A stretch of 64,000 nt of DNA from Bacteriovoracaceae bacterium. Lineage in GTDB: Bacteria > Bdellovibrionota > Bacteriovoracia > Bacteriovoracales > Bacteriovoracaceae. A program made the position numbers and the translations under genes. The stretch lies in the NCBI GenBank assembly GCA_016784965.1, contig JADHTQ010000003.1, positions 62,001 through 126,000 on the forward strand, in the 5' to 3' direction. Below are positions 5,173 through 64,000 of this stretch, piece after piece (the stretch's first letter is position 1; every line of letters starts with the position of its first letter). The notes beneath the pieces are model-generated. The model was not told where the DNA came from. It saw only the letters and a list, made by a program, of their open reading frames with translations, and ran no database searches.

Positions 5173-5188
5173 GGTGAGGAATTGGCCT

Positions 5189-11617: not shown

Positions 11618-11638
11618 ATATAAAGCAGGAGAATAATT

Positions 11639-15597: not shown

Positions 15598-15643
15598 AAA
15601 TCCAAATAATTTTAGTTATTTATTGGAGCTATGTCAAAAGTAG

Positions 15644-16021: not shown

Positions 16022-16140
16022 AAATTTCTCTTTTTCATTACACGTTTGCTATTAAAGATAGGTCTATTGTATCATATTTTTGCAAGTCAGAACCTAAGGT
16101 GATAGATTCTACCTTTTATGAAAAATTAGGGGAATTTTTG

Positions 16141-18499: not shown

Positions 18500-18510
18500 G
18501 GACTAATTTT

Positions 18511-19314: not shown

Positions 19315-19325
19315 GGTATAAATCT

Positions 19326-19880
19326 ATGAAAGATCAAATTAACTTTTTAGAATTGGCCCGTAAGTATGAAGATAAGCTCAGGCCAATTAAAGTATTTTTA
19401 ACTGATGTAGATGGCATTTTAACAGATGGTAAAATCTATTTTGCAGGAGATGAGGTTGGCTTCAACCGTTTTTTTCATGTACATGATGGATATGGCTTTA
19501 AGCTATTGCAAGCTGCCGGCATTAAAGTGGGAATTATTTCTGGAGGAGCAAGCTTAGGTCTTGAAAAAAGATTTTCAACTTTAAAAGTAGATTATTGTTT
19601 TATAGGCAACGAAGATAAAAGAGAAGCTTATTTGAAGATTAAAGAAGATGGATTTAAAGATAGCGAAATCTTATATATGGGAGATGAGCTATTTGATTTG
19701 CCTATTTTAAAAAGAGCAGGATTTTGTGCTACTGTACCCAGTGCTTGCCTTGAAGTTCAAGAGGTAGTTGATTACACAACTTTTAGAGAAAGCGGACAAG
19801 GGTGTGTTCGAGAAGTTATCGACATTGTCAGGTTTGCCCAAAATATTGTTTCTTTTGTTCCTGACTTTGATGAACTTTAA
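19326..19880 (+). CDS. kdsC: 3-deoxy-8-phosphooctulonate phosphatase
   Basis: Removes phosphate from Kdo-8-phosphate. A 184-residue HAD phosphatase without a cap domain, as in KdsC. The catalytic DxD is at residues 27-29 in FLTDVDGILTDG, motif II is IISGG, and motif IV is the GDELFDLP acidic pair. The protein is the normal length for KdsC, and its place directly after kdsA supports the substrate assignment over other small HAD enzymes. Confidence 0.92.
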   Translation: MKDQINFLELARKYEDKLRPIKVFLTDVDGILTDGKIYFAGDEVGFNRFFHVHDGYGFKLLQAAGIKVGIISGGASLGLEKRFSTLKVDYCFIGNEDKREAYLKIKEDGFKDSEILYMGDELFDLPILKRAGFCATVPSACLEVQEVVDYTTFRESGQGCVREVIDIVRFAQNIVSFVPDFDEL

Positions 19881-19904
19881 ATAGCGATATTGATTATTTA
19901 GCCA

Positions 19905-19933
19905 TTGCAACTTTGATATGATCCTCATAGAAT
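19905..19933 (+). promoter_or_regulatory. Possible sigma-70 promoter of the Lys-rich protein gene
   Basis: TTGCAA and TAGAAT are separated by exactly 17 bases, and transcription would start about 25 bases before the ATG of the Lys-rich protein. This would give that gene its own transcript, separate from the Kdo operon. Confidence 0.35.
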
Positions 19934-19966
19934 TATCGGATAAAATATCTTAAATGGAGTTTATGT

Positions 19967-20326
19967 ATGGCAGTTTCAAAGAAAAAAGCAAAAAGTCCTA
20001 CAGATGCTAAAACAACTACAAAGAAGGTCACAAAGAAGACGACCAAGAAGGTAACAGCAAAAAAGACCACTACAAAAAAAGTTGAAGCAAAGAAAAAAGT
20101 GGCCAAAAAAGTGGCGGCAAAACCGATAGCAAAACAAAAAAATACCATTACATTTCCCGAAAAGGATTTAAAAAAATGGCTTGAAGGACGTGCTTTTTGG
20201 AGTCACGACGATTGGCTGGGTTTGCTAAATGACCTTTACAATCAAGGACATACCGACCTTGTGTCTACAGATAAGGGCAGGTGTGCTATCGGAGACTTTC
20301 TAGAAAAGTATCGGATGACCTACTAA
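19967..20326 (+). CDS. Lys-rich histone H1-like small protein
   Basis: A 119-residue protein in two parts. Residues 1-60 are low complexity, Lys/Thr/Ala rich with repeated KKTTKK-like units, similar to the tails of bacterial histone H1-like proteins and likely to bind DNA or RNA. Residues 65-119 form a compact, acidic-aromatic segment (WLEGRAFWSHDDWLGLLNDL) that I do not recognise. The ATG has a TGGAG ribosome site. Its stop overlaps that of the convergent PhaR-like gene by four bases. Confidence 0.55.
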   Translation: MAVSKKKAKSPTDAKTTTKKVTKKTTKKVTAKKTTTKKVEAKKKVAKKVAAKPIAKQKNTITFPEKDLKKWLEGRAFWSHDDWLGLLNDLYNQGHTDLVSTDKGRCAIGDFLEKYRMTY

Positions 20327-50302: not shown

Positions 50303-50683
50303 CTACTTCTTATTATTCCATGAGTGAGCTCGTATAGAAGACTTTTCTTTGTGGCTTTTAAAATATGAGTGTATAGCGACAGCTCCAACCGCAAGGCCAA
50401 CTGTTGCTAGTGCACCTATTAACATAGCGCTCCATACGCCAGTAATGGATAGACCACTACCTGCAGCTACTTTTGCAACCGCCATTTTAGTTGTGCCTAC
50501 TGCACCCTTTGCACCTGCTCCAGCTGCTTTTGCTGCACCAGCGCCAGCTCCTTTGGCAACTCCGGCTCCCTTAACTCCTCCTGCTGTAAGGCCACCTTCA
50601 GCTTCTACCGCTACTACTTTTCCACCTATCCCTCGTATTACCTCGGTTTCTACGAGTGGGTTATTCAATTGTGCTACTGGCAT
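50303..50683 (-). CDS. Mms6/MamD-like magnetosome mineral protein
   Basis: A 126-residue protein with the Mms6 plan. Residues 30-75 are a Gly/Ala/Lys-rich, low-complexity stretch (GAGVAKGAGAG and AGAGAKGAV units). Residues 82-104 are one hydrophobic helix with a VGLAVGAVAIHSYFKS end that resembles the AGAVYAYMKS end of Mms6. The short C-terminal tail is basic rather than acidic, unlike Mms6, so mineral binding may differ. Mms6 binds iron and shapes magnetite in Magnetospirillum. It is divergent from the mam operon. The GAGGGA ribosome site supports the start. Confidence 0.58.
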   Translation of the reverse strand: MPVAQLNNPLVETEVIRGIGGKVVAVEAEGGLTAGGVKGAGVAKGAGAGAAKAAGAGAKGAVGTTKMAVAKVAAGSGLSITGVWSAMLIGALATVGLAVGAVAIHSYFKSHKEKSSIRAHSWNNKK

Positions 50684-50738
50684 ATGTCCCTCTTTTATCT
50701 TATAGGTTAAACTAAATTTATTAAGTCAGATTGATTGG

Positions 50739-50753
50739 GCGTATATTATACGC
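50739..50753. promoter_or_regulatory. Palindromic operator-like site over a minus-strand -10 box
   Basis: GCGTATA and TATACGC form a perfect inverted repeat around a single T, between the divergent mms6-like gene and the mam operon. On the minus strand it contains TATAAT, a perfect -10 box for the mms6-like gene, with a weak TTGCTT 15 bases upstream. A regulator bound here would block that promoter. Confidence 0.42.
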
Positions 50754-50812
50754 TGATGAAACGGAAAGCAAGAAAACTCTGGGAAAAAACGTAATATATT
50801 TATTGGAAGTTG

Positions 50813-50841
50813 TTGACAATTAATGTTTCATACAATAAAAA
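50813..50841 (+). promoter_or_regulatory. Possible promoter of the mam operon
   Basis: A perfect TTGACA followed 17 bases later by TAAAAA (four of six -10 bases). Transcription would begin near 50,848, which favours the ATG at 50,879 as start of the first gene over the TTG at 50,855. A nearer TACAAT is only 12 bases from TTGACA and so was not chosen. Confidence 0.38.
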
Positions 50842-50878
50842 ACACTAAATTAAATTGAGCGGTAGTGTAATAGTAAAA

Positions 50879-51373
50879 ATGAAAGATAAACAAGCCAAAT
50901 TGCTTAGCAAACAAGAGAGTAGGAGAGCTTTTCGAGAAGTGCTTACTTCTAAATACAGTATAATGGCTCTTATTTTTGGTGCATTTATCTTTTCTTTAAC
51001 CGTCATTAACACTAATAAGGCGAAAAAAATTAAAGCTTTTTTATCAGAGAGAGATATAGTAGACCATTCATTTGTACATGGTCGCTTTCGGTTGAGCCGG
51101 TTTCAAGCACAACCAGGAAACACTACTCCTAAGGTGAATATTATAAACCCTTATAAAACTGTTAAGAGCAAGGCTGGTGGCAAGCGTTCATGCATATGCC
51201 CTATAGACCGTGTTGTATATGTTGATATGCAGACTTGCAAAAGTGCTTGTCCTGTCTGTCGCAAGCACCTTTTTGGCGCTGTATACGGGGGGGATGGTGC
51301 TATGAAACCAAAGATTACAACGAAGATTGCGGGTGTCAAGAAGCCAAATAAGCTACCTCAGGTAAAATTATAA
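50879..51373 (+). CDS. Membrane protein with Cys motif, first gene of the mam operon
   Basis: A 164-residue protein with one helix near residues 27-46 and a C-terminal region bearing five Cys in the pattern C-x-C-x12-C-x3-C-x2-C (CICP, then TCKSACPVC), which could bind zinc, a metal cluster or form disulfides. There is no CxxCH, so it is not a c-type cytochrome. I do not recognise it, but its position and Cys pairs suggest a magnetosome-associated protein akin to the zinc-ribbon proteins later in the operon. A TTG eight codons upstream is an alternative start. Confidence 0.55.
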   Translation: MKDKQAKLLSKQESRRAFREVLTSKYSIMALIFGAFIFSLTVINTNKAKKIKAFLSERDIVDHSFVHGRFRLSRFQAQPGNTTPKVNIINPYKTVKSKAGGKRSCICPIDRVVYVDMQTCKSACPVCRKHLFGAVYGGDGAMKPKITTKIAGVKKPNKLPQVKL

Positions 51374-51387
51374 AACAGGAAACGATA

Positions 51388-51735
51388 ATGATGAACAAGA
51401 GAACATTCCATCTTCTTTTTGGCCTAACGATGCTTGGCTTAGGAATATTTGGAATAATCGATGAATGGTACAATGTGATAGACTTTGTACTCGGCTTGTC
51501 TGCAATTGTATTAACATTGTGGGGTACTGTTCTCATTGCAGTTGGTGGAAAAAGAAGTGGATTTTCCAGAACAATTTATGTATCGATAGGATTGTTTTTA
51601 TTTTGTTTTGGTGTGTTTGGCATTTATGATGAGTGGGGAACCGTTCGCGACCTAGGGATTGGCATTATACCTGTTCTCAGTTTGATGTTTGGGACTTTAG
51701 CATTAGTTGCAGGTGTAAATCGTTTAAAAAACTAA
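51388..51735 (+). CDS. Tandem MamI-like magnetosome membrane protein
   Basis: A 115-residue protein made of two MamI-like halves. Each half has a hydrophobic helix, then an acidic aromatic turn (GIFGIIDEWYNVIDF in the first, GVFGIYDEWGTVRDL in the second) and a second helix ending near basic residues. MamI is about 70 residues in Magnetospirillum and is needed for magnetosome vesicle formation. The next gene is a single MamI-like protein with the same signature. I infer duplication and fusion. Start ATG-ATG with an AACAGGAAA site upstream. Confidence 0.65.
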   Translation: MMNKRTFHLLFGLTMLGLGIFGIIDEWYNVIDFVLGLSAIVLTLWGTVLIAVGGKRSGFSRTIYVSIGLFLFCFGVFGIYDEWGTVRDLGIGIIPVLSLMFGTLALVAGVNRLKN

Positions 51736-51758
51736 TTTAAACAAACGAAGGTACTAAT

Positions 51759-51944
51759 ATGGCACAGATAGTAACAGGTCTTTTTTTAATTGCATTTGGT
51801 TTGTGGGGAGTATTCGATGCTTGGCACTACATGGTTGATGCTTTAAAAGGTGGGTCTGGCATAGTTATGGCCATTGTAGGTGTGTTGTCACTAGCATTGG
51901 CGACAAAAAGTTCAGAGAAATTTGTTATTGGAAGAGATGAGTAA
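51759..51944 (+). CDS. mamI: MamI-like small membrane protein
   Basis: A 61-residue, two-helix protein with the MamI signature: GLFLIAFGLWGVFDAWHYMVDALKGG between the helices, and a polar C-terminal end. MamI is required for membrane invagination in Magnetospirillum. The GAAGG ribosome site lies well before the ATG, and mamA follows. The paralog just upstream is a fused double copy. The order relative to mamA is not the classical one, but the cluster context supports the call. Confidence 0.72.
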   Translation: MAQIVTGLFLIAFGLWGVFDAWHYMVDALKGGSGIVMAIVGVLSLALATKSSEKFVIGRDE

Positions 51945-51963
51945 TATTTAAGGAGCAACTTTA

Positions 51964-52647
51964 ATGAATAATAAAACAGCAGCAAGTCAAGAAAAGATGA
52001 TTCCAGATTTCGAATATGTTTTGCATTCAGCATTATTAATGATTGGAAAATGGTTTCACAGCCTTCTGACTTGGTATGAAAATCTATTTACTCTGAGTTC
52101 TACGGATCAGTTTAAAGTGTATGCCAACTTGGTAAATCATTATAGAAAAAAAGGAAAGCTTGATGAGGCTGTGGCAATGGCGAAAAAAGCTCTAAAAACT
52201 GCCGGAGCTCAGGACAAGGCTGCTGCCCAAAGAAACTTAGCAGACCTCTTTTTTGCTATTAGTGATTTTACGAACGCAAAAACTAATTATGAGATTTGTT
52301 TAAAGAAAAACAGTGCTGACTCCAAAATTAAAGTTAGATTGGCAATAATTTGCAGGAAAAATGGCGACATAGAAGGCGCGATTAAGTTTTTTGAAGAAGC
52401 ATTAGAGCTCAATGCAAAAGACCACGAAACTATGTATAACGTTGCCCAACTGTACGATAAGGCAAATAAAAGAGAAGAAGCTGTTGCTATGATTCAAAAG
52501 GCACTTGCTTTAAGCCCAAATTGTATTAGTTATCACCAGTTCTTGGGATTCCTATATGAGTCTTTAGACAAGCATCAAGACGCTCTTCCCCACTTTAAAA
52601 AGGTAATGGAATTAGAACATGCTGCTGTAGCTAACGTGGTTCAATAG
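51964..52647 (+). CDS. mamA: MamA, TPR protein of the magnetosome surface
   Basis: A 227-residue protein with at least four to five TPR repeats (KGKLDEAVAMAKKAL, NTNAKTNYEICLKK-like, NGDIEGAIKFFEEALELN, ANKREEAVAMIQKALALSP, LDKHQDALPHFKKVMEL). MamA coats the magnetosome on the cytoplasmic side and scaffolds other Mam proteins. The first 50 residues are less repetitive and include two amphipathic helices. AAGGAG precedes the ATG. mamQ follows after 11 bases, as in the classical mamA-mamQ order. Confidence 0.82.
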   Translation: MNNKTAASQEKMIPDFEYVLHSALLMIGKWFHSLLTWYENLFTLSSTDQFKVYANLVNHYRKKGKLDEAVAMAKKALKTAGAQDKAAAQRNLADLFFAISDFTNAKTNYEICLKKNSADSKIKVRLAIICRKNGDIEGAIKFFEEALELNAKDHETMYNVAQLYDKANKREEAVAMIQKALALSPNCISYHQFLGFLYESLDKHQDALPHFKKVMELEHAAVANVVQ

Positions 52648-52658
52648 GGGAGACTCAG

Positions 52659-53387
52659 GTGACCGGAAAAACAAGCCACATTATTGAACAAATATATCGT
52701 GAGGACATGTTCACTGACGATTTCAACATTGCTCAAAGAGCTTGGATTTCTCTTACCAAAAAGATTAAGAATATATTTCCTCCAGATGCCGATAGATACT
52801 TAAGTCATGCTCGCAAACTCATTCTCCTAGGTATCGTAGGTTGCTCATTTTTTATTTTTGGAGGCATTTTTTATTACAACCAGTTTTATGTTAAATATCA
52901 AGACATGCTAGCAGCAGAGAGTAAGATTCACACCTTTTTACAGAAAAGGCGCAATGTTCAATTAAATATTTCCAAGATTGTTTTTAATTACTCACAACAT
53001 GAAAGTAGTGTGTTTAAAGGGGTCGTTGCTTCTCGCCAGGCTTTTGCAACAGATGGAATGGCTAGTTTGGTTGACAAATTAAAGGACGCAAAGCAAATAC
53101 CAGATGGTGCTTCATTAGAAGGATTTATGTCGAAGATTTTTGCACTTTCTGAGCAATACCCTGATTTGAAATTAAATACGAACCTTTTAAAGTTTATTGA
53201 TGTGATTTTAGCTGTAGAAAAGAATGTAGCCGATGCAAGGGTCGAATTTAACCTTTGTCTGAATTCTTATTCAACGGTGCTTAAGACTTTTCCAGGAAAT
53301 GTTTACAATCTTTTCTTTGGATTTAAATCTAAGCCATATTATAGGGCAGCTGAAAATGCTAGAGATTTTAAAATCATCACTTACTGA
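52659..53387 (+). CDS. mamQ: MamQ, LemA-family magnetosome protein
   Basis: A 242-residue protein. One helix near residues 53-72 is followed by a helical LemA domain that closes with the family signature FPGNVYNLFFGFKSKPYY. MamQ is needed for magnetosome membrane formation in Magnetospirillum. The GTG start has a GGGGAGA ribosome site. Its 3' end overlaps the next gene's likely start by 32 bases. Position between mamA and mamB repeats the Magnetospirillum order, which makes this more than a generic LemA protein. Confidence 0.82.
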   Translation: MTGKTSHIIEQIYREDMFTDDFNIAQRAWISLTKKIKNIFPPDADRYLSHARKLILLGIVGCSFFIFGGIFYYNQFYVKYQDMLAAESKIHTFLQKRRNVQLNISKIVFNYSQHESSVFKGVVASRQAFATDGMASLVDKLKDAKQIPDGASLEGFMSKIFALSEQYPDLKLNTNLLKFIDVILAVEKNVADARVEFNLCLNSYSTVLKTFPGNVYNLFFGFKSKPYYRAAENARDFKIITY

Positions 53388-53844
53388 GCTTAAATTAAAG
53401 GCCAAGGAACACTATGTCTTTCTAGGCATGTGCTTGATTTCGGCTTGGATTGTACTGTATTCCGACTATAACTTGGCAACAGGAACCGGTAACTTAAGTT
53501 TGATGTTGTTTTTTTTAGCAAATACGTATGTACCAGCTAAGTTTTTGAGAGAGGCATTTAATTTAAAAAATGTTTCAACTTTTTTTATAACATATCTGCG
53601 TTGGCACTGTAATTTAAACATTATTGCCTTTTTAGTGGCTTGCTTACATGCATGGCTCACTAACTGGGTGAATTTCTGGCTGCAGGTATCTCTAATATTG
53701 ATGGGATGGTTAACGTTTGGGGGCTTTTTATTAAAATTTAAATATAACGCAATGGTTAAGAAGTGGGTTTATTTTTTACATGGCCAGCTCTTTTTATTTG
53801 TTATATTGGTCTATGCTCTGCTAAAAGGCCATTATGTTTTTTAA
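53356..53844 (+). CDS. Four-helix membrane protein, possible heme-b/ferric reductase-like
   Basis: About 162 residues with four predicted helices. Two helices each carry a His pair: His84 and His98 (14 apart) in one, His142 and His159 (17 apart) in the other. This resembles the di-heme b layout of ferric reductase-type or cytochrome b561-like membrane proteins, so it might move electrons across the magnetosome membrane to iron. I know of no named Mam protein in this position. The ATG chosen overlaps mamQ by 32 bases; upstream alternatives add non-conserved sequence. Confidence 0.52.
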   Translation: MLEILKSSLTELKLKAKEHYVFLGMCLISAWIVLYSDYNLATGTGNLSLMLFFLANTYVPAKFLREAFNLKNVSTFFITYLRWHCNLNIIAFLVACLHAWLTNWVNFWLQVSLILMGWLTFGGFLLKFKYNAMVKKWVYFLHGQLFLFVILVYALLKGHYVF

Positions 53845-53870
53845 AAACGATTAATTTGGAGGTTAGTTGT

Positions 53871-53978
53871 ATGGTGGGAATAGTAATGCTTATTGTGGTA
53901 GTTGTCGGGGGCGGGTATTTGTACTCTCGTATTGCAAAACTTGAAAAAGAAATAGAAACAGAGAAAGAGACAAGATAA
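53871..53978 (+). CDS. 35-residue single-pass membrane peptide
   Basis: A short ORF with a strong GGAGG ribosome site at seven bases from its ATG. Residues 2-20 are hydrophobic (VGIVMLIVVVVGGG-like), then a short charged coil (KLEKEIETEKETR). It lies in the slot held by mamR in Magnetospirillum, but the sequence is too short to claim homology. A small subunit or regulator of the neighbouring membrane protein is possible. Confidence 0.55.
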   Translation: MVGIVMLIVVVVGGGYLYSRIAKLEKEIETEKETR

Positions 53979-53992
53979 TTTAAGGAAATGAT

Positions 53993-54904
53993 GTGGCAAC
54001 TGAAGTTGATATAAGCAATACCAAATTAAAGCATAGCGCTTGTGAAAAGTGTATTAAGTCACTAGGTGCTATTAATGTTGGCGGGAACAGTTTTGTCGCT
54101 TTAGTCAAGATGTATCTCGGAATCGTTGGCGGTAGTGCCGCCCTTTTTGCCGATGGGATACACTCTTTTGGTGATGTCGCTGGCTCTATGACCATGCTTG
54201 TGGGCCTGAAAATTGTCAATAGACCAAATGATGAAAAGTACCCGTACGGATATGGTAAATTCGAATATGTTTCAGCATGTGCAATCTACTCCCTTCTATT
54301 TGGCGTAGGTGTCTATATTTTTATAATGGCAATACACCTAATTGTTTTAGGCCATGCCGTTAATCCTGATATGGTTACAGTTATAGGTGCTATGATTTCT
54401 CTAGTTGCCAATGAGCTTATGTATCGTCAAAGCTTTTGTGCTGGAAACCAGTTGCATAGTCCATCCATGATTGCCAATGCCCATGAAAAAAGAGCAGATG
54501 TGTGGTCATCACTAGCGGTTCTTCTTGGAATTGTTGGTTCTAAGTTTGGGTTGTGGTTCTTTGACCCACTGGCTGCACTATTAGTTAGTGGCTTTATTTT
54601 TAAACTAAGCCTAGAGTCGATATATCACGCTATTCATGGTCTCATGGATCACCAACTACCAGATGAGGACCACGAAATTGTGCTAAATGAATTAAGTGCA
54701 GCAGAAGGCTTTGAGGTTAGGGAAGTAAGAACGAGAGAGTTGGGTCAAAAAATAAGTGTTGAAGTGGAGCTTTTTGCACCAGCAAATAAGGCCCTTAAGG
54801 AGCTGGATGCTCTTCGAAAGGATCTTACAAGAGCAATTTTAGATAGGATAGAAAGACCAGGAGAAGTGCTATTCTATTTTTTTACAAAGAAAGTGAAACA
54901 ATAA
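53993..54904 (+). CDS. mamB: MamB, cation diffusion facilitator
   Basis: A 303-residue CDF protein, which in Magnetospirillum transports iron and is needed for vesicle formation. An N-terminal CEKC pair precedes six helices. The transport ligands are His57 and Asp61 (HSFGD) in helix 2 and Glu165 and Asp169 (EKRAD) in helix 5, close to the acidic pattern of MamB. The NELMYRQSFCAGNQLHSPSMIANA segment is nearly that of MamB. GTG start with TAAGGA upstream. Position after mamQ supports MamB over MamM. Confidence 0.8.
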   Translation: MATEVDISNTKLKHSACEKCIKSLGAINVGGNSFVALVKMYLGIVGGSAALFADGIHSFGDVAGSMTMLVGLKIVNRPNDEKYPYGYGKFEYVSACAIYSLLFGVGVYIFIMAIHLIVLGHAVNPDMVTVIGAMISLVANELMYRQSFCAGNQLHSPSMIANAHEKRADVWSSLAVLLGIVGSKFGLWFFDPLAALLVSGFIFKLSLESIYHAIHGLMDHQLPDEDHEIVLNELSAAEGFEVREVRTRELGQKISVEVELFAPANKALKELDALRKDLTRAILDRIERPGEVLFYFFTKKVKQ

Positions 54905-54925
54905 AAAGAAATTGGGGTTAAGCAA

Positions 54926-56569
54926 GTGAAAGATAATAGTTCTGGTACTGACTTTTGTATGAAACAATTTAAGCCCATTGTGGGTGTTGTTTTAGTCCTA
55001 CTTTTGATCGTTGTCGGTTGGACTGTGTACATAGAGTTAGGTTATGGCCAAAGAGGAAGCACAACAACCCTGCACGCAAGAGGCGCAACTAGAGTAGCAG
55101 CATTTAAAATACCCATTAGGATAAACATGTTGATGCATCACGTGTTCAGGGGAAACAATTGTTACCAGTGCCATAAATTGGTTGGTGCACCAGAAATGCC
55201 CCCTATGCCGGCAAGACCAATATTGCCTAAGGCGCCCATGACTCACCCATTTTGGGGTAAGTGTACAAACTGCCATAAGATACTCGGAGCACCTGCAGCT
55301 GGGGGCAAGCCAGTTGGTTTTGTACCAGTATTTGGAGCGGGCAAAATACCCATCCAAATAGGCCAACTTGTACTTCATCCAAATTACGGAAATGACTGTA
55401 TGATGTGCCATATGATCCCCGGTGGAGATCAGAAGCCAGCAATACCAGCTGATCCTATTCAATGGACTATACCGCTACCACATCCATTTTGGGGAGCATG
55501 CAAAAAGTGTCATGCAATAATAAAAACACCAGCTCCAGGAGCAGCACCAGTAGCGTTTATAAATTCTAAAATTGGTAAAAATTACTTCGGAGCCGATTTG
55601 CTGACAGTTGATAGGTTACTTGCAGAACAGTTTAATCTTCCCTCCAATAACGGAGTCTTGGTTAACAGTCTCAAACCGCAATCCTATGCAGCGACTGTTG
55701 GGTTTTTGGAAGGAGACATTATTACTGATGTGAATAATATCCCCGTCACAACTCTGGCAGGCTTCGCGCGAGAAATTGATAAGTATATTCCCGGAGATAG
55801 AATTAATGTAAAGGTAATTCGAAATAAGGGCCGGACAAAAAATTTAAAATTTAAAATGAAAGCGTGGGCTCCAACGGTTGGCGATCCTACAAATAAAATT
55901 GGGATTTTAGCTACTGGTAAAACCTTGAATTCACCCGTAGCTTTTAGTCTGGTTAATGCGCCCTATATGATTGTCTATGAGTTAGATATTGATAACTTTT
56001 ATGCTGTGGCGAACCCTTTTAAGGGTATAGCTAACAACAAAGTATCTAGCTGGATTGTTACAAAAAAAGTAGGCAGTATAGTTACAGGCAATATTAATCA
56101 ATCAGACTTTATAAATCTTCAAAGAAATAATGTTACGGTATATAACTCGGTTTTTGGTACTGCTGCAGATGCAGTTGCTTTGTATCGCCAAGGAGATTTG
56201 ATAGCGAAGAAGGGACCACAGGTAGTGGCCTTTAATCGGAACATAATCAACATTTTGGGTATACCTTCAAATTATGCAGATCCTGCTTCTAATATTGCAC
56301 CATCACTAGAAACTGCTCAGTATTTAATTAAAGTGGAGCTGGATCAAAATATGTATGAGGTCATAATCAACCCATATTTTAACCAACCTAAAGTAAATGG
56401 GTTAATGATGGCCCACTTTCTTGTTGATAATGAGTTTGATGCATTGATTACCAATAAAATAGGCAACAGTACTTTAGTTGAGCTAAAGAAGTTGAATGTA
56501 CAGGTAATAAATGGAGTTAATAGCACTGTTAGTGATGCCATTTTAAATTTTCAAAATGGTAAACTGTAG
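54926..56569 (+). CDS. Tetraheme magnetochrome-PDZ-NifX-like magnetosome protein
   Basis: A 547-residue protein with a membrane anchor (about residues 18-40). It has four CxxCH heme sites at residues 79-83, 113-117, 158-162 and 192-196. The spacing 34 residues within each pair and exactly 79 between pairs, plus matching HPFWG flanks, shows an internal duplication of a double magnetochrome unit, as in MamE, MamP and MamT. A PDZ domain follows (about 222-310), then two NifX/NafY-like domains (323-424, 430-547), each ending in a VFGT or GVNST-type motif and D/A-rich helix. MamP has a PDZ domain before two magnetochromes; here the order is reversed and more domains are added. Likely an iron redox regulator. 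Confidence 0.7.
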   Translation: MKDNSSGTDFCMKQFKPIVGVVLVLLLIVVGWTVYIELGYGQRGSTTTLHARGATRVAAFKIPIRINMLMHHVFRGNNCYQCHKLVGAPEMPPMPARPILPKAPMTHPFWGKCTNCHKILGAPAAGGKPVGFVPVFGAGKIPIQIGQLVLHPNYGNDCMMCHMIPGGDQKPAIPADPIQWTIPLPHPFWGACKKCHAIIKTPAPGAAPVAFINSKIGKNYFGADLLTVDRLLAEQFNLPSNNGVLVNSLKPQSYAATVGFLEGDIITDVNNIPVTTLAGFAREIDKYIPGDRINVKVIRNKGRTKNLKFKMKAWAPTVGDPTNKIGILATGKTLNSPVAFSLVNAPYMIVYELDIDNFYAVANPFKGIANNKVSSWIVTKKVGSIVTGNINQSDFINLQRNNVTVYNSVFGTAADAVALYRQGDLIAKKGPQVVAFNRNIINILGIPSNYADPASNIAPSLETAQYLIKVELDQNMYEVIINPYFNQPKVNGLMMAHFLVDNEFDALITNKIGNSTLVELKKLNVQVINGVNSTVSDAILNFQNGKL

Positions 56570-56580
56570 GAGAGTTAAGC

Positions 56581-58278
56581 GTGGAACACTCTGGAATTCG
56601 TAAGCACGGTCAAGCGATCAAAGGTTATTGTGAAGACATTAATCTGCTCTTCTACCTTTTAGTAATTTTAATTGTTTTGGCAATGTTTTATGTTATTTTT
56701 GGTTGGGGTGAAAGTTCGCGAATTAAAGTTAATTTTGCAGGACGTTCTCCAGAAGTTTTACTGCCTCCAGAAGTTGAACGTGTTGTTCCTCAAGCAGCCA
56801 GAGGTGCCGCTGCTGGTGCAGGTGGTGCAGCTGCCGGTGCACTAAAACCAGTGCCAGAAATTGAGGGAGTAATTTTACCTGCTGCTCCTCCAAAAGTTAA
56901 AAAAGTTGTGTTTGGCTTTGGTGAAAGCACTAAAGTTGGATTAAAGTTGATCCCAATCGATTTATGGCATCTGCAGACTTTAGGACTAAAAAATAATGAG
57001 GGAGCACTTGTCTATTCTGTAAAAGCTGGATCGATGGCCAGTAAAGCAGGTATTATAGAAAATGACGTTATAATAAGAGTTAATGGAACTGCCATTGACA
57101 ACGCTAATGAGTTTAAAGCAGTTGAGCAGACTTTCATAGATGGAATTAGATACCGCATTAAAATAATTAGAAAAGGAAAGTTTAAAAAACTAAACCTTGT
57201 TTATCATAAAAGTGCATTGGCGGTGGCCCTACAAAATACTGGTCCTCCATGGATTGGTGTCAATGTGCAAAGAATTGATTCAGTGATTGTTAAGCAATTT
57301 AAGTTGGCGAGTGCTGCCGGTGCAATCGTTGCATCAACCGCTCCCAAGGGGCCAGCGGCAAAAGCTAATATAGTACAAGGTGATATCATTTTAGAAGTAG
57401 ATGGCAAAAAAATTATGGGCCCCACTGACCTTCGAGTAATTTTTAAAACCCTAAAGCCAGGCGCTATGATTCCGATCACTATTTTTAGAGATGGTAAGAT
57501 GTTTACTACAGATCTGACAGTAGAAACAAAGCCTGCCGGTGGACCTTTGAAACCTAGTTTTTTACCTGCTCCAAGTATTGAGGTTGAGGCCTCTTGGGTG
57601 GGCTTAACTATTGCGACTTTGACTAAAAAAGATGCACAGAGAGTTCGTCTTGGACCCAATACACACGGTGTTTTGGTTGTTGCGGTTGCCAACGGCCCCG
57701 GTTTGGGAGCGGGCTTAATCGGTGATGATGTAATCATCGGGGTAAATGGTCACGCCGTTAATGATCTTAGAGAATTTAAAAAAGCAGTCCAAATGCAAGA
57801 AGGTGTTGTACTAGATGTATTGCGCGATGGCGGGATACATCGCTATATTACAATTGAGCAAGTACGGCCGCACCTTTTGTCAAATATTAAACCTAATAAA
57901 GCTGGTAGTATTACCCGAGTAGCAGCACTTATGGGTGCTACTAAGCAGGTCGCGGTTGGATCCTATGGCAATGCTTTATTTGATCAGGTTTATCCTTATT
58001 TTGACAATTCTCCATTTTTTATTATTTATAATCCAAATGATGGCACTTATAAGGCCATTAAAAACCCTGCAGCAGGAGACCTTACTAAAAAACAAAGATT
58101 TAAGCTGCCAACCGTATTAATAAAGGAAGGGGTGGGAACGATTATTACTGGAAATATGCAACGTGATATACAGTCAGCATTTAAAGCAGAAAACTTTGAG
58201 GTTTTTACAGGCGCTTTTGGCAACACCAACAATATTATCACGATGTATTTAGGTCAGAAATTGATTCAGAGTAACTAG
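56581..58278 (+). CDS. Triple-PDZ protein with NifX-like end, magnetosome-associated
   Basis: A 565-residue protein with one anchor helix (about 21-40), a Gly/Ala/Pro-rich linker, and three PDZ domains (about 117-208, 223-314 and 338-425), each with the G-x-x-x-x-D-V/I-I-I-x-V-N/D-G core. The C-terminal domain (about 453-563) is NifX/NafY-like and clearly related to those in the preceding gene (TGAFGN and YLGQKL against VFGT and YRQGDL). There is no heme site and no protease triad, so it probably binds partners. GTG start with GGAGAG upstream. Confidence 0.68.
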   Translation: MEHSGIRKHGQAIKGYCEDINLLFYLLVILIVLAMFYVIFGWGESSRIKVNFAGRSPEVLLPPEVERVVPQAARGAAAGAGGAAAGALKPVPEIEGVILPAAPPKVKKVVFGFGESTKVGLKLIPIDLWHLQTLGLKNNEGALVYSVKAGSMASKAGIIENDVIIRVNGTAIDNANEFKAVEQTFIDGIRYRIKIIRKGKFKKLNLVYHKSALAVALQNTGPPWIGVNVQRIDSVIVKQFKLASAAGAIVASTAPKGPAAKANIVQGDIILEVDGKKIMGPTDLRVIFKTLKPGAMIPITIFRDGKMFTTDLTVETKPAGGPLKPSFLPAPSIEVEASWVGLTIATLTKKDAQRVRLGPNTHGVLVVAVANGPGLGAGLIGDDVIIGVNGHAVNDLREFKKAVQMQEGVVLDVLRDGGIHRYITIEQVRPHLLSNIKPNKAGSITRVAALMGATKQVAVGSYGNALFDQVYPYFDNSPFFIIYNPNDGTYKAIKNPAAGDLTKKQRFKLPTVLIKEGVGTIITGNMQRDIQSAFKAENFEVFTGAFGNTNNIITMYLGQKLIQSN

Positions 58279-59226
58279 ATGATGTTTAGAGTTTTTATTG
58301 GATTAATAATTATTTTTTCAGGAGTTACTAGGGCACAAATCGATCCGTTAGGGGCTTTACAAGAAAGACAAAATGATGCCATCGCGCGGGCCAAATACAG
58401 TGTAGTGCATATTAAGGCGTATGATAAAAGAACTCCAGGTCTTGAAAATATAGGTTCGGGAGTGATCGTCCACCAACAAGGGTTCATTGTAACCAATGAC
58501 CATGTGGTAAATGGGTTTGATACAATTGAGGTAACAATTAATCGTGGGAGAAAACACGTAATATACACTGCCTCGATTCTTAAGTCTGATCCTAAGGCCG
58601 ACTTGTCGCTAATTAAAGTCAATGGAAGTGTTTTGCTATACCCAATACAGCTTCCCAAGAACAAACTGTTAGATATAGGGGCGACTGTTTTTGTAATTGG
58701 AAGTCCTTTTGGATTAGATCATACTGTGACAAAAGGAATTGTAAGTAAACGAAGAAGGTCAGTGGTGATAGGTGGCATTGTATACAGTGAGATGATTCAA
58801 ACTGATGCAAATATTAATCAGGGGAACTCTGGTGGAGCTGTTATTAATATGAATGGTGAAATAATTGGGATCGCTAGTGCGATATACTCAGAAACCACTA
58901 ATTCATCGGGCATTGGGTTTGCCATACCTATTGCAAGAGTAAAAGATTTTTATCAAGCCGAAGTACAGCAACATAAGAAAAAATTCTTGAAGAAGCTGCG
59001 AACTAAAGATCTAACGCTGCCATTTAAGCGTATTTTAGATAATCAAATATATTTACCAATGGTTGATAGAAGCTCTAAGCAGTTTCAAATGGAAAAACAA
59101 AGACGATCATACCATCTGTCATCAGCACTTCTAGTTAAGTATACAACTATTTTAGTTTTAATTACTTTTGCAATCATGGTAGCAATTATCTTGTTTCTAA
59201 GAAGAAAAACGGTGGTGCTGGCATGA
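58279..59226 (+). CDS. mamE: HtrA-like serine protease, MamE-like
   Basis: A 315-residue trypsin-like protease with an intact triad: His75 (TNDHVV), Asp108 (KADLSLI) and Ser184 (GNSGG). Residues 1-19 are a signal or anchor and residues 287-306 a C-terminal helix; the protease would face the magnetosome lumen or periplasm. MamE in Magnetospirillum also has two heme motifs and two PDZ domains, absent here; those domains occur instead in the two genes just upstream. It starts directly after the upstream stop codon, and its own stop overlaps the next start (ATGA). Confidence 0.7.
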   Translation: MMFRVFIGLIIIFSGVTRAQIDPLGALQERQNDAIARAKYSVVHIKAYDKRTPGLENIGSGVIVHQQGFIVTNDHVVNGFDTIEVTINRGRKHVIYTASILKSDPKADLSLIKVNGSVLLYPIQLPKNKLLDIGATVFVIGSPFGLDHTVTKGIVSKRRRSVVIGGIVYSEMIQTDANINQGNSGGAVINMNGEIIGIASAIYSETTNSSGIGFAIPIARVKDFYQAEVQQHKKKFLKKLRTKDLTLPFKRILDNQIYLPMVDRSSKQFQMEKQRRSYHLSSALLVKYTTILVLITFAIMVAIILFLRRKTVVLA

Positions 59227-60065
59227 GTAAGCGGATAATTATTGTAGTAGTAGCGATCTTTTTTATAGGTGTTTTTTACTTTGGTTATAATTCACATAAG
59301 AGTGTAATGATACCTCTGCCAAATACCAATTGGAAGACAAAAAGCAGAACACTTCGTAGGTTTCAAAATCTTCCACCTGCTAACCTGACAAAAGACCAGG
59401 TTATGATCAACGAAACTATCCAACATAGTACTAATAAACTTTTGGTAAAAGTTAGACCTTGTGTCGTGAGTGTAATCAGTTATAGTGCCGCACCCTTGAG
59501 ACATAATGGTGAATTTTTTGGTAAGATTTTAGACCCTCACAAAGTGGGCAACAAGTTAATAAGTTCTGGCATTATTGTTGGAAAAAGTGGGCATATCATA
59601 ACTGCCTATGACGCAGTTCCGGCCAATCAAATTGAAGTTAAGCTATTTAGACATGTACCTAACGTGTTTAAAGCTCAAATCCAAAAGGTAGATAAAAACC
59701 TTCATCTAGCATTGCTAAAAATTGTAGACCCTGGCAACTTCCCAGTTTGTAATCTGGGTAACTCCAGTGTACTAAATGTAGGCGACCTAGTATATGCAGT
59801 TGGCAGCCCTTACGGTTTTTCTCAAACGGTCACCTCTGGAATAATCAGTAGCAATCGTAAGAAAATGAATGTTCACGGTGATATCTTTCAAAAATTGATC
59901 CAGACTGATGCGGCCATAAACAAGGGAAACAATGGAGGTCCTCTAGTCAATATAAGGGGAGAAGTTATTGGGATTAATGCGATTGTTTATTCGACAAATG
60001 CCGGAAATGCAGGTATTAACTTTGCTATACCTGTAAACGATGTGAAGACTTTACTTCAAAAGTAG
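59223..60065 (+). CDS. mamO: Trypsin-like pseudoprotease, MamO-like
   Basis: A 280-residue membrane-anchored protein with a trypsin-like fold but no active triad. Compared with the preceding MamE-like protein, the His is Asp130 (TAYDAV), the Asp is His161 (NLHLALL) and the Ser is Asn237 (GNNGG). The framework around each site is well conserved, so the loss seems selected rather than decay. MamO of Magnetospirillum is also a degenerate protease that binds metal and activates MamE. The ATG overlaps the mamE-like stop by four bases. Confidence 0.7.
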   Translation: MSKRIIIVVVAIFFIGVFYFGYNSHKSVMIPLPNTNWKTKSRTLRRFQNLPPANLTKDQVMINETIQHSTNKLLVKVRPCVVSVISYSAAPLRHNGEFFGKILDPHKVGNKLISSGIIVGKSGHIITAYDAVPANQIEVKLFRHVPNVFKAQIQKVDKNLHLALLKIVDPGNFPVCNLGNSSVLNVGDLVYAVGSPYGFSQTVTSGIISSNRKKMNVHGDIFQKLIQTDAAINKGNNGGPLVNIRGEVIGINAIVYSTNAGNAGINFAIPVNDVKTLLQK

Positions 60066-60078
60066 GAGAGGAGGGGCA

Positions 60079-60453
60079 ATGGAGCGGAAGCATTTTTATT
60101 TTGCTGGTATATTGCTAATCATAATGTTTCTAGTGTTGATTTTTGACTATATGAAACATCATGCACCAGTTAACCAAGGGAGACACCACGCTGTGGTGCC
60201 AGCGCAAAACCCTAATGCTAGACGAGTGAAACTTACCACTCCAGCTACGACAAAATATATTGCCGGAGGGCAGTACATGTGTATGCGATGCTCTCACACT
60301 GGAATTCCAAAGTTTAATGGGACTAAAAGTCCCCGATGTTCCATGTGTGGTGGATTTATGCAAACAATTCGGCTGAGTTCAGTAGACGCTGCAAAAATTT
60401 GCGGCAACTTTCATTGTCCTCATGCAAAAACGGGTGGAAGATTAATTAAATAA
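60079..60453 (+). CDS. Zinc-ribbon membrane protein A, magnetosome-associated
   Basis: A 124-residue protein with an N-terminal helix and a zinc ribbon formed by C68-x2-C71 and C87-x2-C90 in a frame shared with the next gene: C-x-x-C-S-H-T-G-x-P, then P-R-C-x-x-C and a Met. Two further Cys lie at 108 and 113. There is no CxxCH, so heme attachment is not expected. A very strong ribosome site (GGAGAGGAGGGG) precedes the ATG. I know no named Mam protein with this motif; metal sensing, redox or structural roles are possible. Confidence 0.62.
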   Translation: MERKHFYFAGILLIIMFLVLIFDYMKHHAPVNQGRHHAVVPAQNPNARRVKLTTPATTKYIAGGQYMCMRCSHTGIPKFNGTKSPRCSMCGGFMQTIRLSSVDAAKICGNFHCPHAKTGGRLIK

Positions 60454-60465
60454 TGAAGATAATTT

Positions 60466-61023
60466 GTGATGAATAAAAACAGCAATTATGTTAATGGTAG
60501 CGATGAAAAGTCTTCACTTATAGTGATTGCTTCTTTTTTTGTGATTACGCTACTAGTAGGCGCTATTTTTCATCACGATAAAAAGAAGATTAATGTAGAT
60601 AAAATGAAGATGCCGGCCCAACAGGCAAAAAAAATGCGGAGAATGGCCATTACATTAAAAAAACATATTGCTCGCAATACACCTCCTCAAGCCAAGCTTA
60701 AAGTTAAGCCTCTTATAAAGTCGTTAGCTCTGCTACATTGTGCTATGGATAAAAAAAATTATGTTCCCATGTGTTCTAGATGCAATGTGCCCTTTACTAA
60801 GGTGGGAGTGTCCCTTCATTGTCCGGTCTGCAAGCAGGAAGCATTATTTATGTGTCCCAATAATATACAAAATAAAATGGTTCTTTGGAATGTGCACTCT
60901 CATAGGAAAAGGCATGCAAATGCAACATATGTATGTCCTGTATGTGCACATAGTGGACCTCCGCGTTGGGATAGTAGAGGGGCACCAAGATGTCCATATT
61001 GTAGAAACATAATGAAGCTTTAA
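60466..61023 (+). CDS. Double zinc-ribbon membrane protein B, magnetosome-associated
   Basis: A 185-residue protein (GTG or the ATG one codon later) with a helix near residues 17-35 and two Cys ribbons: C103/C106 with C119/C122, and C157/C160 with C176/C179. The second ribbon repeats the motif of the gene before it (C-x-x-C-A-H-S-G-P-P and P-R-C-x-x-C), which points to a local duplication. Basic linker of about 50 residues between helix and ribbons. No enzyme motif found. It stands directly before mamL. Confidence 0.62.
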   Translation: MMNKNSNYVNGSDEKSSLIVIASFFVITLLVGAIFHHDKKKINVDKMKMPAQQAKKMRRMAITLKKHIARNTPPQAKLKVKPLIKSLALLHCAMDKKNYVPMCSRCNVPFTKVGVSLHCPVCKQEALFMCPNNIQNKMVLWNVHSHRKRHANATYVCPVCAHSGPPRWDSRGAPRCPYCRNIMKL

Positions 61024-61041
61024 GTTAAGTGGGGTAAAGTT

Positions 61042-61269
61042 ATGGCCAAAATATTGTCTTTTTTAATACTTGCTGCGCTAGGGATAGTTTTTGTTATCCA
61101 AAATAGCGAACATGTAGTCATTCAACTGGTAATTGGAAACCCCATACGAATACGTTTAATCTTTTTACTGTTGGTGTTTTTTGCCATTGGTTACTTGTTG
61201 GCGAAATTTGAAGGACTACATAGAGAAAGAAGATTTAAAAAGAAGCTTGCTAAGATACACAATAAGTGA
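61042..61269 (+). CDS. mamL: MamL, small magnetosome membrane protein
   Basis: A 75-residue, two-helix protein with a LapA-like core (FVIQNSEHVVIQL, then LIFLLLVFFAIGYLLAKFEG) and a basic amphipathic C-terminal tail. MamL is required for magnetosome membrane formation, and its basic tail may help to bend the membrane. A GGGG ribosome site precedes the ATG. It is followed by mamM and mamN, exactly the Magnetospirillum order. Confidence 0.75.
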   Translation: MAKILSFLILAALGIVFVIQNSEHVVIQLVIGNPIRIRLIFLLLVFFAIGYLLAKFEGLHRERRFKKKLAKIHNK

Positions 61270-61280
61270 GGACCTAACTG

Positions 61281-62162
61281 ATGCATTGTGAAAATAAAAA
61301 TCGTGATAAATGTGTTCGGTGTCGTGAGCATGCTGGAACGGCACAGCTCGGTGGTACAATATTTTTAACTGTTTTAAAAATTGTAGTGGGTATTTTGGGT
61401 AACTCAAAAGGGTTACTAGCAGATGCAATTCACTCAGCAGCAAACATTGTAACCTCCGCTGCCATTTTTATTAGTAAAAAATGGGGAGACAAACCCGCAG
61501 ATAAAGAACACCCATTTGGGCATGGTAAACTTGAATTTGTTACCTCTTCTATGGTTAGTGGTTTGCTCGTTGTGAGTACACTTTATATAATTTGGCACTC
61601 TCTAGATGAAATACTTCATGGTCACCCCGGTGAGATGCCTCACTGGACTGTTGTAGTTGTGGCCATAATTTCGATTATTGTTAACGAAGCTCTGTTTCAA
61701 TACTTACAATGCGTTGGTAATGAATTTAAAAGTAGTAGTATTTTAACCAACTCTTGGGCGATACGTTCAGATAGTTTCTCTTCTATTGCGGTTATAGCAG
61801 GGGTTATAGCCACAAGGTTGGGCTTTACTCACTCTGATGGGTATGTGGCATTAGCGGTTGCTAGTATTATCGTTTATGTATGTTTTAAACTATTCTTAGA
61901 CTCCATTATGCATTTGATGGATAAGTCAATTCCACTAGATCAATTAAATGATATTCGTGCCACAATTAACGATGTTGTGGGAGATAGATTGCAAAGTTTG
62001 TCTGCCCGTCTAAATGGTAGAAAAATATGGGTGAACGCAACTCTTAGTTTGGGTACAAATAGCAAAATTAATGTACTAACTGATTATGATGAAAAAATCC
62101 AAGAGGGTGTCAGGAAGAATCATAAGCAGGTAGACAAGGTACTTGTGGATTTTAAATTATGA
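61281..62162 (+). CDS. mamM: MamM-position cation diffusion facilitator with missing ligands
   Basis: A 293-residue CDF protein in the mamL-mamM-mamN order. It has an N-terminal C-x2-C pair (DKCVRCREH) and six helices. Of the four usual transport ligands, helix 2 keeps His51 but has Asn55 instead of Asp (HSAAN), and helix 5 has Ala160 where an acidic residue or His is expected, keeping Asp164 (AIRSD). So transport may be weak or of another ion. The NEALFQYLQCVGNEF segment resembles MamB, so sequence alone does not decide MamB against MamM. GAGGA ribosome site; overlaps mamN by four bases. Confidence 0.72.
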   Translation: MHCENKNRDKCVRCREHAGTAQLGGTIFLTVLKIVVGILGNSKGLLADAIHSAANIVTSAAIFISKKWGDKPADKEHPFGHGKLEFVTSSMVSGLLVVSTLYIIWHSLDEILHGHPGEMPHWTVVVVAIISIIVNEALFQYLQCVGNEFKSSSILTNSWAIRSDSFSSIAVIAGVIATRLGFTHSDGYVALAVASIIVYVCFKLFLDSIMHLMDKSIPLDQLNDIRATINDVVGDRLQSLSARLNGRKIWVNATLSLGTNSKINVLTDYDEKIQEGVRKNHKQVDKVLVDFKL

Positions 62163-63601
62163 TGAATGTTGCGACAAAAAAACAAAGTGTTTCATTCTAC
62201 TTTGTCTTTAGTGTGCTATGTGTTTGGTGTATTTACACCGTAACCACACCAACATTTTTGCTCAAAACCAATCCATTAAATGGCACTTTAAAGAATATTG
62301 TTGCCCAAGTAATTTGCCTTAAAATCTTAATCGTTACTTTTGCAACCCTTTACTATCGTCCGACAAAGCGTCTGTTTGTTTTAAGTTTGGGAAGTTTAGC
62401 AATTTTGGCGGTAGGGACATATGTAGGATTTTATAACCTATCTTATGCACTACAAAGCATAGACATTAGCACTCTTTCTTTGCTGTTTGGTATGGGTTTG
62501 ATCTCAACTATACTGGCCGCCACAAACTGTTTTAAAGTTGTGACCAACCGTTTAATTGAGATGTTTGGCAAGTATCATTTTGCTTTGTTTGTGATCTTGG
62601 TATTGCTTACATATTTTTTCTCTTTATTCATTAACAATCTGACTACGATGCTTCTGATTTTACCTGTTACCCTTACGCTGGCAGATACACTTAAGTTGAA
62701 GGCGACACCTTTTATTATCGGCCAAATAATTGCCTCAAACCTTGGTGGAGCATCAAGCATGTTAGGTGATTTTCCAAATATGTTAATTGCTTCCAAGATG
62801 CATATACCTTTTCACCTATTTATTAAACACATGATGCCAATTTGTTTAATAAATTTAGGAGTGATGTTGTTGTATTTTTACAGGAAAGTAGATTTTGGCG
62901 ACAGTGCAACGACAGAAGATAAATTGGTGCAACTAACTCTACCAAATGCTTCCATAACAAACTCTAAAGCATTAAATCTTTCCATCCTAGTCCTTATTAC
63001 GATGATTGGTTTTTTTATGTTTTCTCGAATTAGTCCGGGGATAGTCGCTCTTGTTGGTGCCGGTATTCTTTTAGCATTTTCTAGTATTGATAAAGAAGAA
63101 ATTATTGCGAGAGTGAATTATACGGACTTGGGTTTTTTTCTTCTGCTTTTTGTATTGATTGGTGGCGTTGAGTCATCAGGTTTACTGGAGACAGTCTCTG
63201 ATGGCGTCTTATATGTATCTGGTGGCAACGAGTTTGTACGACTATTGATTTTAATGTGGGGCGCCAGCTTTGTGACTATGTTTTTTAATGCAGGGCCCAC
63301 GACAATTTTGTTTTTACCGATGTTTTTGGGGGTTAGTGGACTACAACCACATAATTTAATATTTTGGGCATTATCTCTGGGAATATGTGCGGGCTCAAGT
63401 GGTAGCTTAAATGGTGCAACTGCAGGCCCTGTATCTCTAACATTAATGGAAAAATTTTACCGCAACGATAGCAAAACAGATAAGCGGGAACATTTAACGT
63501 ATGCGTCTTATTCGATTATAGGATTTCCTATAATGTACCTGCATTTGTTGATCTCAACTTTATATGTTTTAATACTGTACTGGATGAGTTTTAAATATTA
63601 G
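62159..63601 (+). CDS. mamN: MamN, ion transporter-like magnetosome protein
   Basis: A 480-residue membrane protein with about 11-12 helices, of the ArsB/NhaD (ion transporter) superfamily. The NNLTTMLLILPVTL and later FNAGPTTILFLPMFLG segments are the paired half-helix motifs of this fold. MamN in Magnetospirillum is thought to export protons produced as magnetite forms. The ATGA overlap with mamM and the order mamL-mamM-mamN strongly support the name. The N-terminal 70 residues hold two additional helices. Confidence 0.8.
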   Translation: MMNVATKKQSVSFYFVFSVLCVWCIYTVTTPTFLLKTNPLNGTLKNIVAQVICLKILIVTFATLYYRPTKRLFVLSLGSLAILAVGTYVGFYNLSYALQSIDISTLSLLFGMGLISTILAATNCFKVVTNRLIEMFGKYHFALFVILVLLTYFFSLFINNLTTMLLILPVTLTLADTLKLKATPFIIGQIIASNLGGASSMLGDFPNMLIASKMHIPFHLFIKHMMPICLINLGVMLLYFYRKVDFGDSATTEDKLVQLTLPNASITNSKALNLSILVLITMIGFFMFSRISPGIVALVGAGILLAFSSIDKEEIIARVNYTDLGFFLLLFVLIGGVESSGLLETVSDGVLYVSGGNEFVRLLILMWGASFVTMFFNAGPTTILFLPMFLGVSGLQPHNLIFWALSLGICAGSSGSLNGATAGPVSLTLMEKFYRNDSKTDKREHLTYASYSIIGFPIMYLHLLISTLYVLILYWMSFKY

Positions 63602-63630
63602 AATACCAAAGATCTAGGATTGAGAGGTTT

Positions 63631-63990
63631 ATGAAACAAAACATGTGTAAGAATTGTTCTGTAAAGGGATATAGCTTTGAGCTATGTACAGCTCATCGTA
63701 TTCATATGGGTGGTAAGGGAAAATGTAGTAATTTTCAACGCAAAAAAAGTTACAAAGATCACTTAAAGCTCAATACCGTCGTTTATGCAGGAGCATCTGT
63801 TTTGGGCGTGACTGCCGGTATCGTTGCTGCACCCGTTTTGGGATTGCCAGTAATAGCTCACGCTGCATTTTTTAAAGTTGGAGCAGGGTTGTTGGGCGGT
63901 AGTATGTCAATAATGGAAAATAAGAAAAAAGACACGGAAAAAGTAATAGAAGGAGAAGGAGATGAACATGGAAACGAAAGCGAAGAATAA
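63631..63990 (+). CDS. Small Cys-rich hydrophobic protein with acidic tail
   Basis: A 119-residue protein in three parts. Residues 5-32 contain four Cys (6, 9, 19, 32), a possible metal-binding knuckle. Residues 48-95 are Gly/Ala-rich and hydrophobic (two helices, GASVLGVTAGIVAAPVLGLP), and the last 25 residues are acidic (DEHGNESEE). Hydrophobic Gly-rich plus acidic ends recall mineral-binding magnetosome proteins such as Mms6 and MamC, but there is no clear match. It lies after mamN; a ribosome site for the next gene is inside its coding end. Confidence 0.5.
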   Translation: MKQNMCKNCSVKGYSFELCTAHRIHMGGKGKCSNFQRKKSYKDHLKLNTVVYAGASVLGVTAGIVAAPVLGLPVIAHAAFFKVGAGLLGGSMSIMENKKKDTEKVIEGEGDEHGNESEE

Positions 63991-64000
63991 GAGTTATCTG
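63962..64000 (+). CDS. Start of a further gene, cut by the window edge
   Basis: A GGAGAAGGAG ribosome site inside the end of the preceding gene is followed by an ATG and an open frame of 13 codons (MNMETKAKNKSYL) to the window end. A second ATG two codons on is an alternative. Too short to identify; it shows only that the operon continues. Confidence 0.4.
   Translation, partial: MNMETKAKNKSYL

Follow-up and report, generated by a model that had tools for sequence, protein, structure and literature searches.

Genes of the operon

The window considered here is the whole 64,000-nucleotide stretch of DNA, part of contig C81 of a Bacteriovoracaceae metagenome-assembled genome (MAG; G000 below), and its subject is the set of magnetosome-type genes that fills its 3' end. 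From 50855 to 63990 these genes form a tight operon on the forward strand, all pointing the same way, just as the preliminary description of this DNA had it; most adjoining genes are separated by -4 to 29 bases. The cluster runs on beyond position 64000, which is only the edge of the window. The genes mamA, mamB, mamI, mamM and mamQ are present in synteny, together with a magnetochrome protein and a MamE/MamO-type protease pair.

MamI is encoded twice, as a protein in which two MamI units stand in tandem (51388..51735; NCBIfam MamI, 3.5e-19 over two stretches) and as a single unit (51759..51944; 7e-12); two MamI-like genes had been proposed earlier, and both do match the family, the first being actually a tandem. 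They are followed by MamA, a TPR protein (51964..52647; NCBIfam MamA the best family, 2e-35), MamQ, of the LemA fold (52659..53387; NCBIfam MamQ the sole family, 8e-19) and, further on, the CDF iron transporter MamB (53993..54904; NCBIfam MamB, 2e-62). Towards the other end of the operon stand MamL (61042..61269), the CDF iron transporter MamM (61281..62162; NCBIfam MamM, 8e-61) and the CitMHS/NhaD-like transporter MamN (62159..63601; NCBIfam MamN, 6e-91, next best family 3e-14). For MamA, MamQ, MamB, MamM and MamN the Mam family is the best in NCBIfam, in agreement with the names first given to them, and MamL, which has a weak LapA domain, is recognised by 37-61% identity to the proteins at the MamL position of related clusters. 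A tree was built from magnetosome MamB and MamM together with the four further CDF proteins of the genome. In it MamB and MamM are each a single group, separated from the housekeeping CDFs at moderate support, with the two window proteins on the MamB and the MamM side, respectively; the four housekeeping rows are long branches whose own placement is unsure. This comes close to the refuting condition set in the preliminary description, and the outcome does not refute a magnetosome cluster.

Between MamB and MamL lies the presumed redox and protease group. The first protein (54926..56569), MamP-like or Fmp-like, combines a magnetochrome domain with four CxxCH haem sites (Pfam MCR, 2.4e-15), PDZ and two Nitro_FeMo-Co domains (1.9e-16), which bears out the magnetochrome protein named at the outset; the second (56581..58278), MamE-Cter-like, carries three PDZ stretches (PDZ_2, 4.5e-29) and a Nitro_FeMo-Co domain (1.3e-9). 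Next come a MamE-type HtrA protease (58279..59226; MamE 1e-53, general DegP/HtrA 3.5e-59) with an intact catalytic triad, H75, D108 and S184, conserved in 9/9 proteins compared, and a MamO-like pseudoprotease (59223..60065), in which residue comparison with homologues places D, H and N at the triad sites, the triad being incomplete in all eight homologues compared. A protease and pseudoprotease pair had been expected here, and the residues confirm it. Gene identity, gene order, conservation, the intact or lost catalytic residues and the co-occurrences described below are established directly.

Host and relatives

The host was earlier suspected to be Bdellovibrionota-like, and it does share its GTDB family with other Bdellovibrionota genomes: JABGUH01 (titled Bdellovibrionales), JADFZW01 and JADGAN01 (titled Oligoflexia). 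Of 369 genomes of the phylum searched for MamN, five of one GTDB family, G000 included, had strong matches, and the four relatives among these carry the cluster, with a gene set mostly 30-75% identical. A MamN match on contig C49 of the host was considered as a second magnetosome cluster and rejected, being an ordinary permease beside unrelated genes. When named genomes were scanned with a MamB alignment, SI034_bin15, nKLKbin12 and nN3bin31 appeared among the family relatives, and clusters of the type of magnetotactic bacteria (MTB) were found in ER2bin7 and AM-lipid-02-D7_bin-222, outside the phylum. SI034_bin15, by its name a Saanich Inlet MAG, matches the window gene for gene (19 genes in identical order); nKLKbin12 and nN3bin31 have most of the gene order in common with it, and ER2bin7 and AM-lipid-02-D7_bin-222 also share order. 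A mamA-mamQ-mad2-mamB-MCR-PDZ cluster in which no mamN was seen is present in three more members of the phylum, belonging to two other families; for G157, G327 and G328, from families of the phylum other than that of the host, no mamN was seen in the cluster.

Rearrangement of the set also occurs. In nN3bin31 (L044, G061) the operon is broken, with mamI-mamA-mamQ (3018-5548) opposite to the mamB-to-mamN part (9683-19998) on one contig. In G060 a second locus off the main cluster (L099, G060:C66 9589-12946) encodes a 902-aa magnetochrome/PDZ/double Nitro_FeMo-Co protein adjoining a second mamQ, and a large protein resembling it is encoded on G059:C4.

Whether this lineage had been described was left undecided in the preliminary description; it has been. 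Bergot et al. 2026 (PMC13200544) report 21 further Bdellovibrionota MAGs with magnetosome gene clusters (MGCs), mamK in none of them, describe magnetite chains in spring populations of mamK-less Bdellovibrionota and mention two Bacteriovoracia genera with MGCs, from Saanich Inlet and the Black Sea. One Bacteriovoracaceae MAG of the Black Sea set has an estimated size of 4.78 Mb, a GC content of 37.2%, completeness of 92.41% and contamination of 3.63% (PMC8067304). The window probably comes from the Black Sea Bacteriovoracaceae MAG for which Bergot et al. reported an MGC. The two magnetically enriched Bdellovibrionota MAGs cited in that paper are presumably nKLKbin12 and nN3bin31, although the names are not printed there. 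The cluster is real and belongs to a kind already described in 2026.

Absence of MamK and a second locus with actin-like genes

In none of the phylum's eight MGC genomes did PF06723 find MamK; the model returned MreB, FtsA-sized and DnaK-sized proteins and weak matches of other sizes. As a positive control, it did give MamK-like proteins in ER2bin7 and AM-lipid-02-D7_bin-222. A second MreB-type protein (E 9e-121) is encoded at G157:C4:54146-55120, besides the usual MreB. A conclusion from PF06723 that the host genome has no Mad28 proved wrong, as this model misses Mad28, and PF25216 finds a candidate on another contig, C102. A protein in the G157 cluster matches Pfam Volactin, and a Volactin search was positive in all ten MGC genomes searched; the G000 member lies outside the window cluster, at C102:44508-45470, and is directly followed by a ParA-type (Mad29-like) gene. 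Because of this neighbour and because mad28 and mad29 adjoin in a Nitrospirota cluster (PMC9376291), we take the Volactin-family protein as Mad28, on the basis of its size, the ParA-type adjacency and its presence in the ten genomes. Around it are encoded an AAA ATPase, a Mad23-like HEAT-repeat protein and further proteins, many of them common to other MGC genomes. The magnetosome gene set of this genome is split, the putative mad28 and further mad-like genes sitting on a separate contig, as newly seen here; a split set has a precedent in Nitrospirota MTB, where three separate regions are known (PMC9376291). On the same contig, a 1471-aa open reading frame (ORF) after the ParA-PilZ gene (G000:C102:46718-51133; L116:1718-6133) has weak similarity to large proteins of other MGC genomes.

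Beside Mad28, C102 also encodes members of two families, A3 (G000:C102:40653-42149) and A4. In G000 the A3 protein has 498 aa with a charged tail (about 400 elsewhere), and the A4 protein 373 aa (about 370). All seven A3 members examined match PF21522, a model of archaeal actin homologues (best 1.2e-7), four also Alp7A and four Actin, with the G000 member under the curated cut-off of the actin-family model; support for A4 from actin-family models is weaker. Phosphate- and adenosine-type motifs occur in both families, in A3 as GGELGTSTSKF, VIDIGHGTWIKL and IIGGGAHLL. The two families match each other in profile-profile comparison (77.5%, E 2e-5); with shallow profiles, matches to MreB, FtsA and Mad28 are not significant, and searching PDB profiles with either family yielded no usable match.

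The distribution of these families follows that of the clusters. Among the 369 genomes of the phylum searched, A3 is present in 8/8 MGC genomes and 0/361 others; A4 shares these eight and has a single further, marginal match. For independent genomes, which these are not, two such sets of eight would coincide with a chance of 1.3e-16. A restriction of A3 to Bdellovibrionota was ruled out by a match in another phylum, that of ER2bin7, where one of 395 genomes encodes A3, its contig bearing mamQ-, mamA- and mamB-like and magnetochrome genes as well. A3 was not found in ER2bin7 or AM-lipid-02-D7_bin-222, both of which have MamK-like proteins. A second, more distant A3-family protein is encoded at G056:C37:44897-46009, in a 685-aa ORF. 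The paper of Bergot et al. poses the question of what replaces MamK and proposes Mad28 (PMC13200544). A3 and A4 are further candidate substitutes, and it is tempting to hypothesize, tentatively, that the magnetosome skeleton of magnetotactic Bdellovibrionota is an actin-superfamily set of Mad28, A3 and A4 rather than MamK. We regard the A3/A4 pair as the main new lead of this analysis; A3 or the AAA ATPase may be the mad27 of other authors. The strict co-occurrence with clusters attaches concrete genes to the question of MamK replacement, which thereby becomes testable. The cluster also adds gene-level detail on magnetosome clusters without mamK, in a group that is known for its predators.

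Probable nature of the cluster and alternatives

Very likely the cluster is a magnetosome operon of mamAB type, of the deep-branching kind that resembles Desulfobacterota, and its host a Bdellovibrionota of the class Bacteriovoracia; the organism is a Bdellovibrio relative that probably builds internal magnetic crystals with these genes. Several points weigh against this. All NCBIfam Mam scores are under the curated cut-offs, as is expected of a distant lineage, and for this reason identity rests on best family, gene order and tree jointly. The bootstrap values separating MamB and MamM are moderate (68 and 72). The host is a MAG, for whose own cells no report of magnetism was found, and C81 and C102, the contigs of the two loci, are without a physical join. 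Ordinary CDF, TPR, LemA, LapA, HtrA and NhaD genes might also have become neighbours by chance, and a general Pfam superfamily is indeed matched by most of the proteins; but with MamN, MamQ, MamI, MamA, MamB and MamM as the best NCBIfam families, MamB and MamM apart from the housekeeping CDFs and the 19-gene order repeated in SI034_bin15, such a coincidence has a negligible probability.

That the contig was binned from another organism is highly improbable: contamination of the genome is estimated at 3.78%, but the GC content of the window (37.8%) agrees with that of other sampled stretches (36.4-41.7%; 37.7% pooled over 227 kb), and four relatives from the GTDB family of the host also carry the cluster. 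It is also conceivable that the operon is degenerate or repurposed, an old iron-handling compartment in which magnetic crystals are no longer made, as the failure to find MamK with PF06723 and a MAG with no attached phenotype would allow. Yet the reading frames are open, the HtrA triad and the four haem sites are retained, and the gene set is conserved across four relatives, two of them taken as magnetically enriched; moreover, magnetite chains have been observed in Bdellovibrionota that lack mamK (PMC13200544). We consider such decay quite unlikely and prefer a magnetosome operon that still serves crystal formation.

Remaining genes and flanking sequence

Between mamQ and mamB lies a Mad2-like multi-helix membrane protein (53299..53844, forward strand, as are all operon genes), whose translation probably begins at an ATG further along the same frame. 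It is 40-66% identical to proteins at loci L050, L053 and L054, and its four invariant histidines (H103, H117, H161 and H178) suggest a di-haem b-type cytochrome, so that on sequence grounds it is possibly a cytochrome of this type; the AlphaFold2 model is weak, of low confidence, and the fold it matches best, that of human Dcytb, falls short of significance. The short membrane/coiled-coil ORF that follows (53763..53978), probably with its real start further along within the frame, is found in G056 at the equivalent place (52% identity over 50 aa).

The first gene of the operon (50855..51373) encodes a protein with an N-terminal membrane anchor and a CxxC motif, conserved in related clusters with homologues at the equivalent place in G056 (36%) and G061 (26%); it had no match in Pfam and only marginal ones in NCBIfam. 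Two further membrane-anchored proteins follow the pseudoprotease. The one at the Mad4 position (60079..60453) has a CxxC motif and keeps its place across related clusters, in three families of the phylum and two MTB outside it. The other, at the Mad6 position (60466..61023), has four CxxC pairs in a zinc-ribbon/rubredoxin-like pattern, its cysteines being invariant in five genomes; zinc-ribbon matches are weak and the AlphaFold2 model is of low confidence. After mamN come a Gly-rich membrane protein (63631..63990; 32-49% identity in related clusters) and the start of a second (63962..64000), the rest of which lies beyond the window. Beyond this second Gly-rich protein C81 encodes, all outside the window, a 175-aa protein, a ferredoxin, a TauE protein of the MamO type (C81:127573-128373) and FeoB (C81:129072-131336). 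Still further on (L008 3-3101) there is a second FeoB with DtxR-like and Fur-like genes.

On the reverse strand, a small Gly/Ala-rich protein with one transmembrane segment (50303..50683) had been called mms6-like. It matched no Pfam or NCBIfam family and, by BLAST, nothing in any related cluster examined; neither that name nor its membership in the cluster has support.

Proposed working of the cluster

Each biochemical step below, magnetite as the mineral and the magnetotactic nature of the cells are what we infer from the genes. MamI, MamL, MamQ and MamB would shape the magnetosome membrane, into which MamB and MamM would import iron supplied by FeoB, while MamN and the TauE protein may adjust ions. 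The HtrA protease/pseudoprotease pair and the magnetochrome/PDZ/Nitro_FeMo-Co proteins would switch on and shape the crystal and would also set the Fe(II)/Fe(III) balance; the Mad2-like putative cytochrome and the CxxC proteins perhaps feed this system. MamA would coat the organelle. Positioning of the chain may fall to the C102 products, namely Mad28, HEAT-repeat and coiled-coil proteins and the two actin-like proteins, in place of MamK.

Comparison with known systems

The mamAB operon of Magnetospirillum has the orders mamA-mamQ-x-mamB and mamL-mamM-mamN, both common to the window, and to this extent the Magnetospirillum-like gene order seen in the preliminary description stands. In contrast to Magnetospirillum, there is no mamK and no recognised mms gene here, and the modules of MamE and MamO type are distributed among five proteins. 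The closer match in order is Desulfobacterota FSS-1, where mad2 lies between mamQ and mamB like the Mad2-like gene here (PMC7951924), and where mad4 and mad6 occupy the positions of the two membrane-anchored CxxC proteins.

The domain fusions had been called unfamiliar, but the Nitro_FeMo-Co fusion is no novelty: FmpA and FmpB of RS-1 have Nitro_FeMo-Co domains as the window proteins do, and mutants in the Fe-Mo domains of fmpA and fmpB show crystal defects (PMC12748827). Counterparts in ER2bin7 and AM-lipid-02-D7_bin-222 likewise align with the Nitro_FeMo-Co proteins of the window. Compared with the Desulfobacterota FSS-1, RS-1 and BW-1, the present cluster lacks mamK and has mamN, carries the TauE domain on a separate protein and fuses two MamI units. 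It has a mamN, which was not seen in the G157, G327 and G328 clusters. With the Bdellovibrionota MGCs of SI034_bin15, nKLKbin12, nN3bin31 and PMC13200544 it shares the phylum, the mamAB order, FeoB, the lack of mamK and the presence in the genome of a putative mad28, whereas here the mad28/mad23-like block lies on a separate contig.

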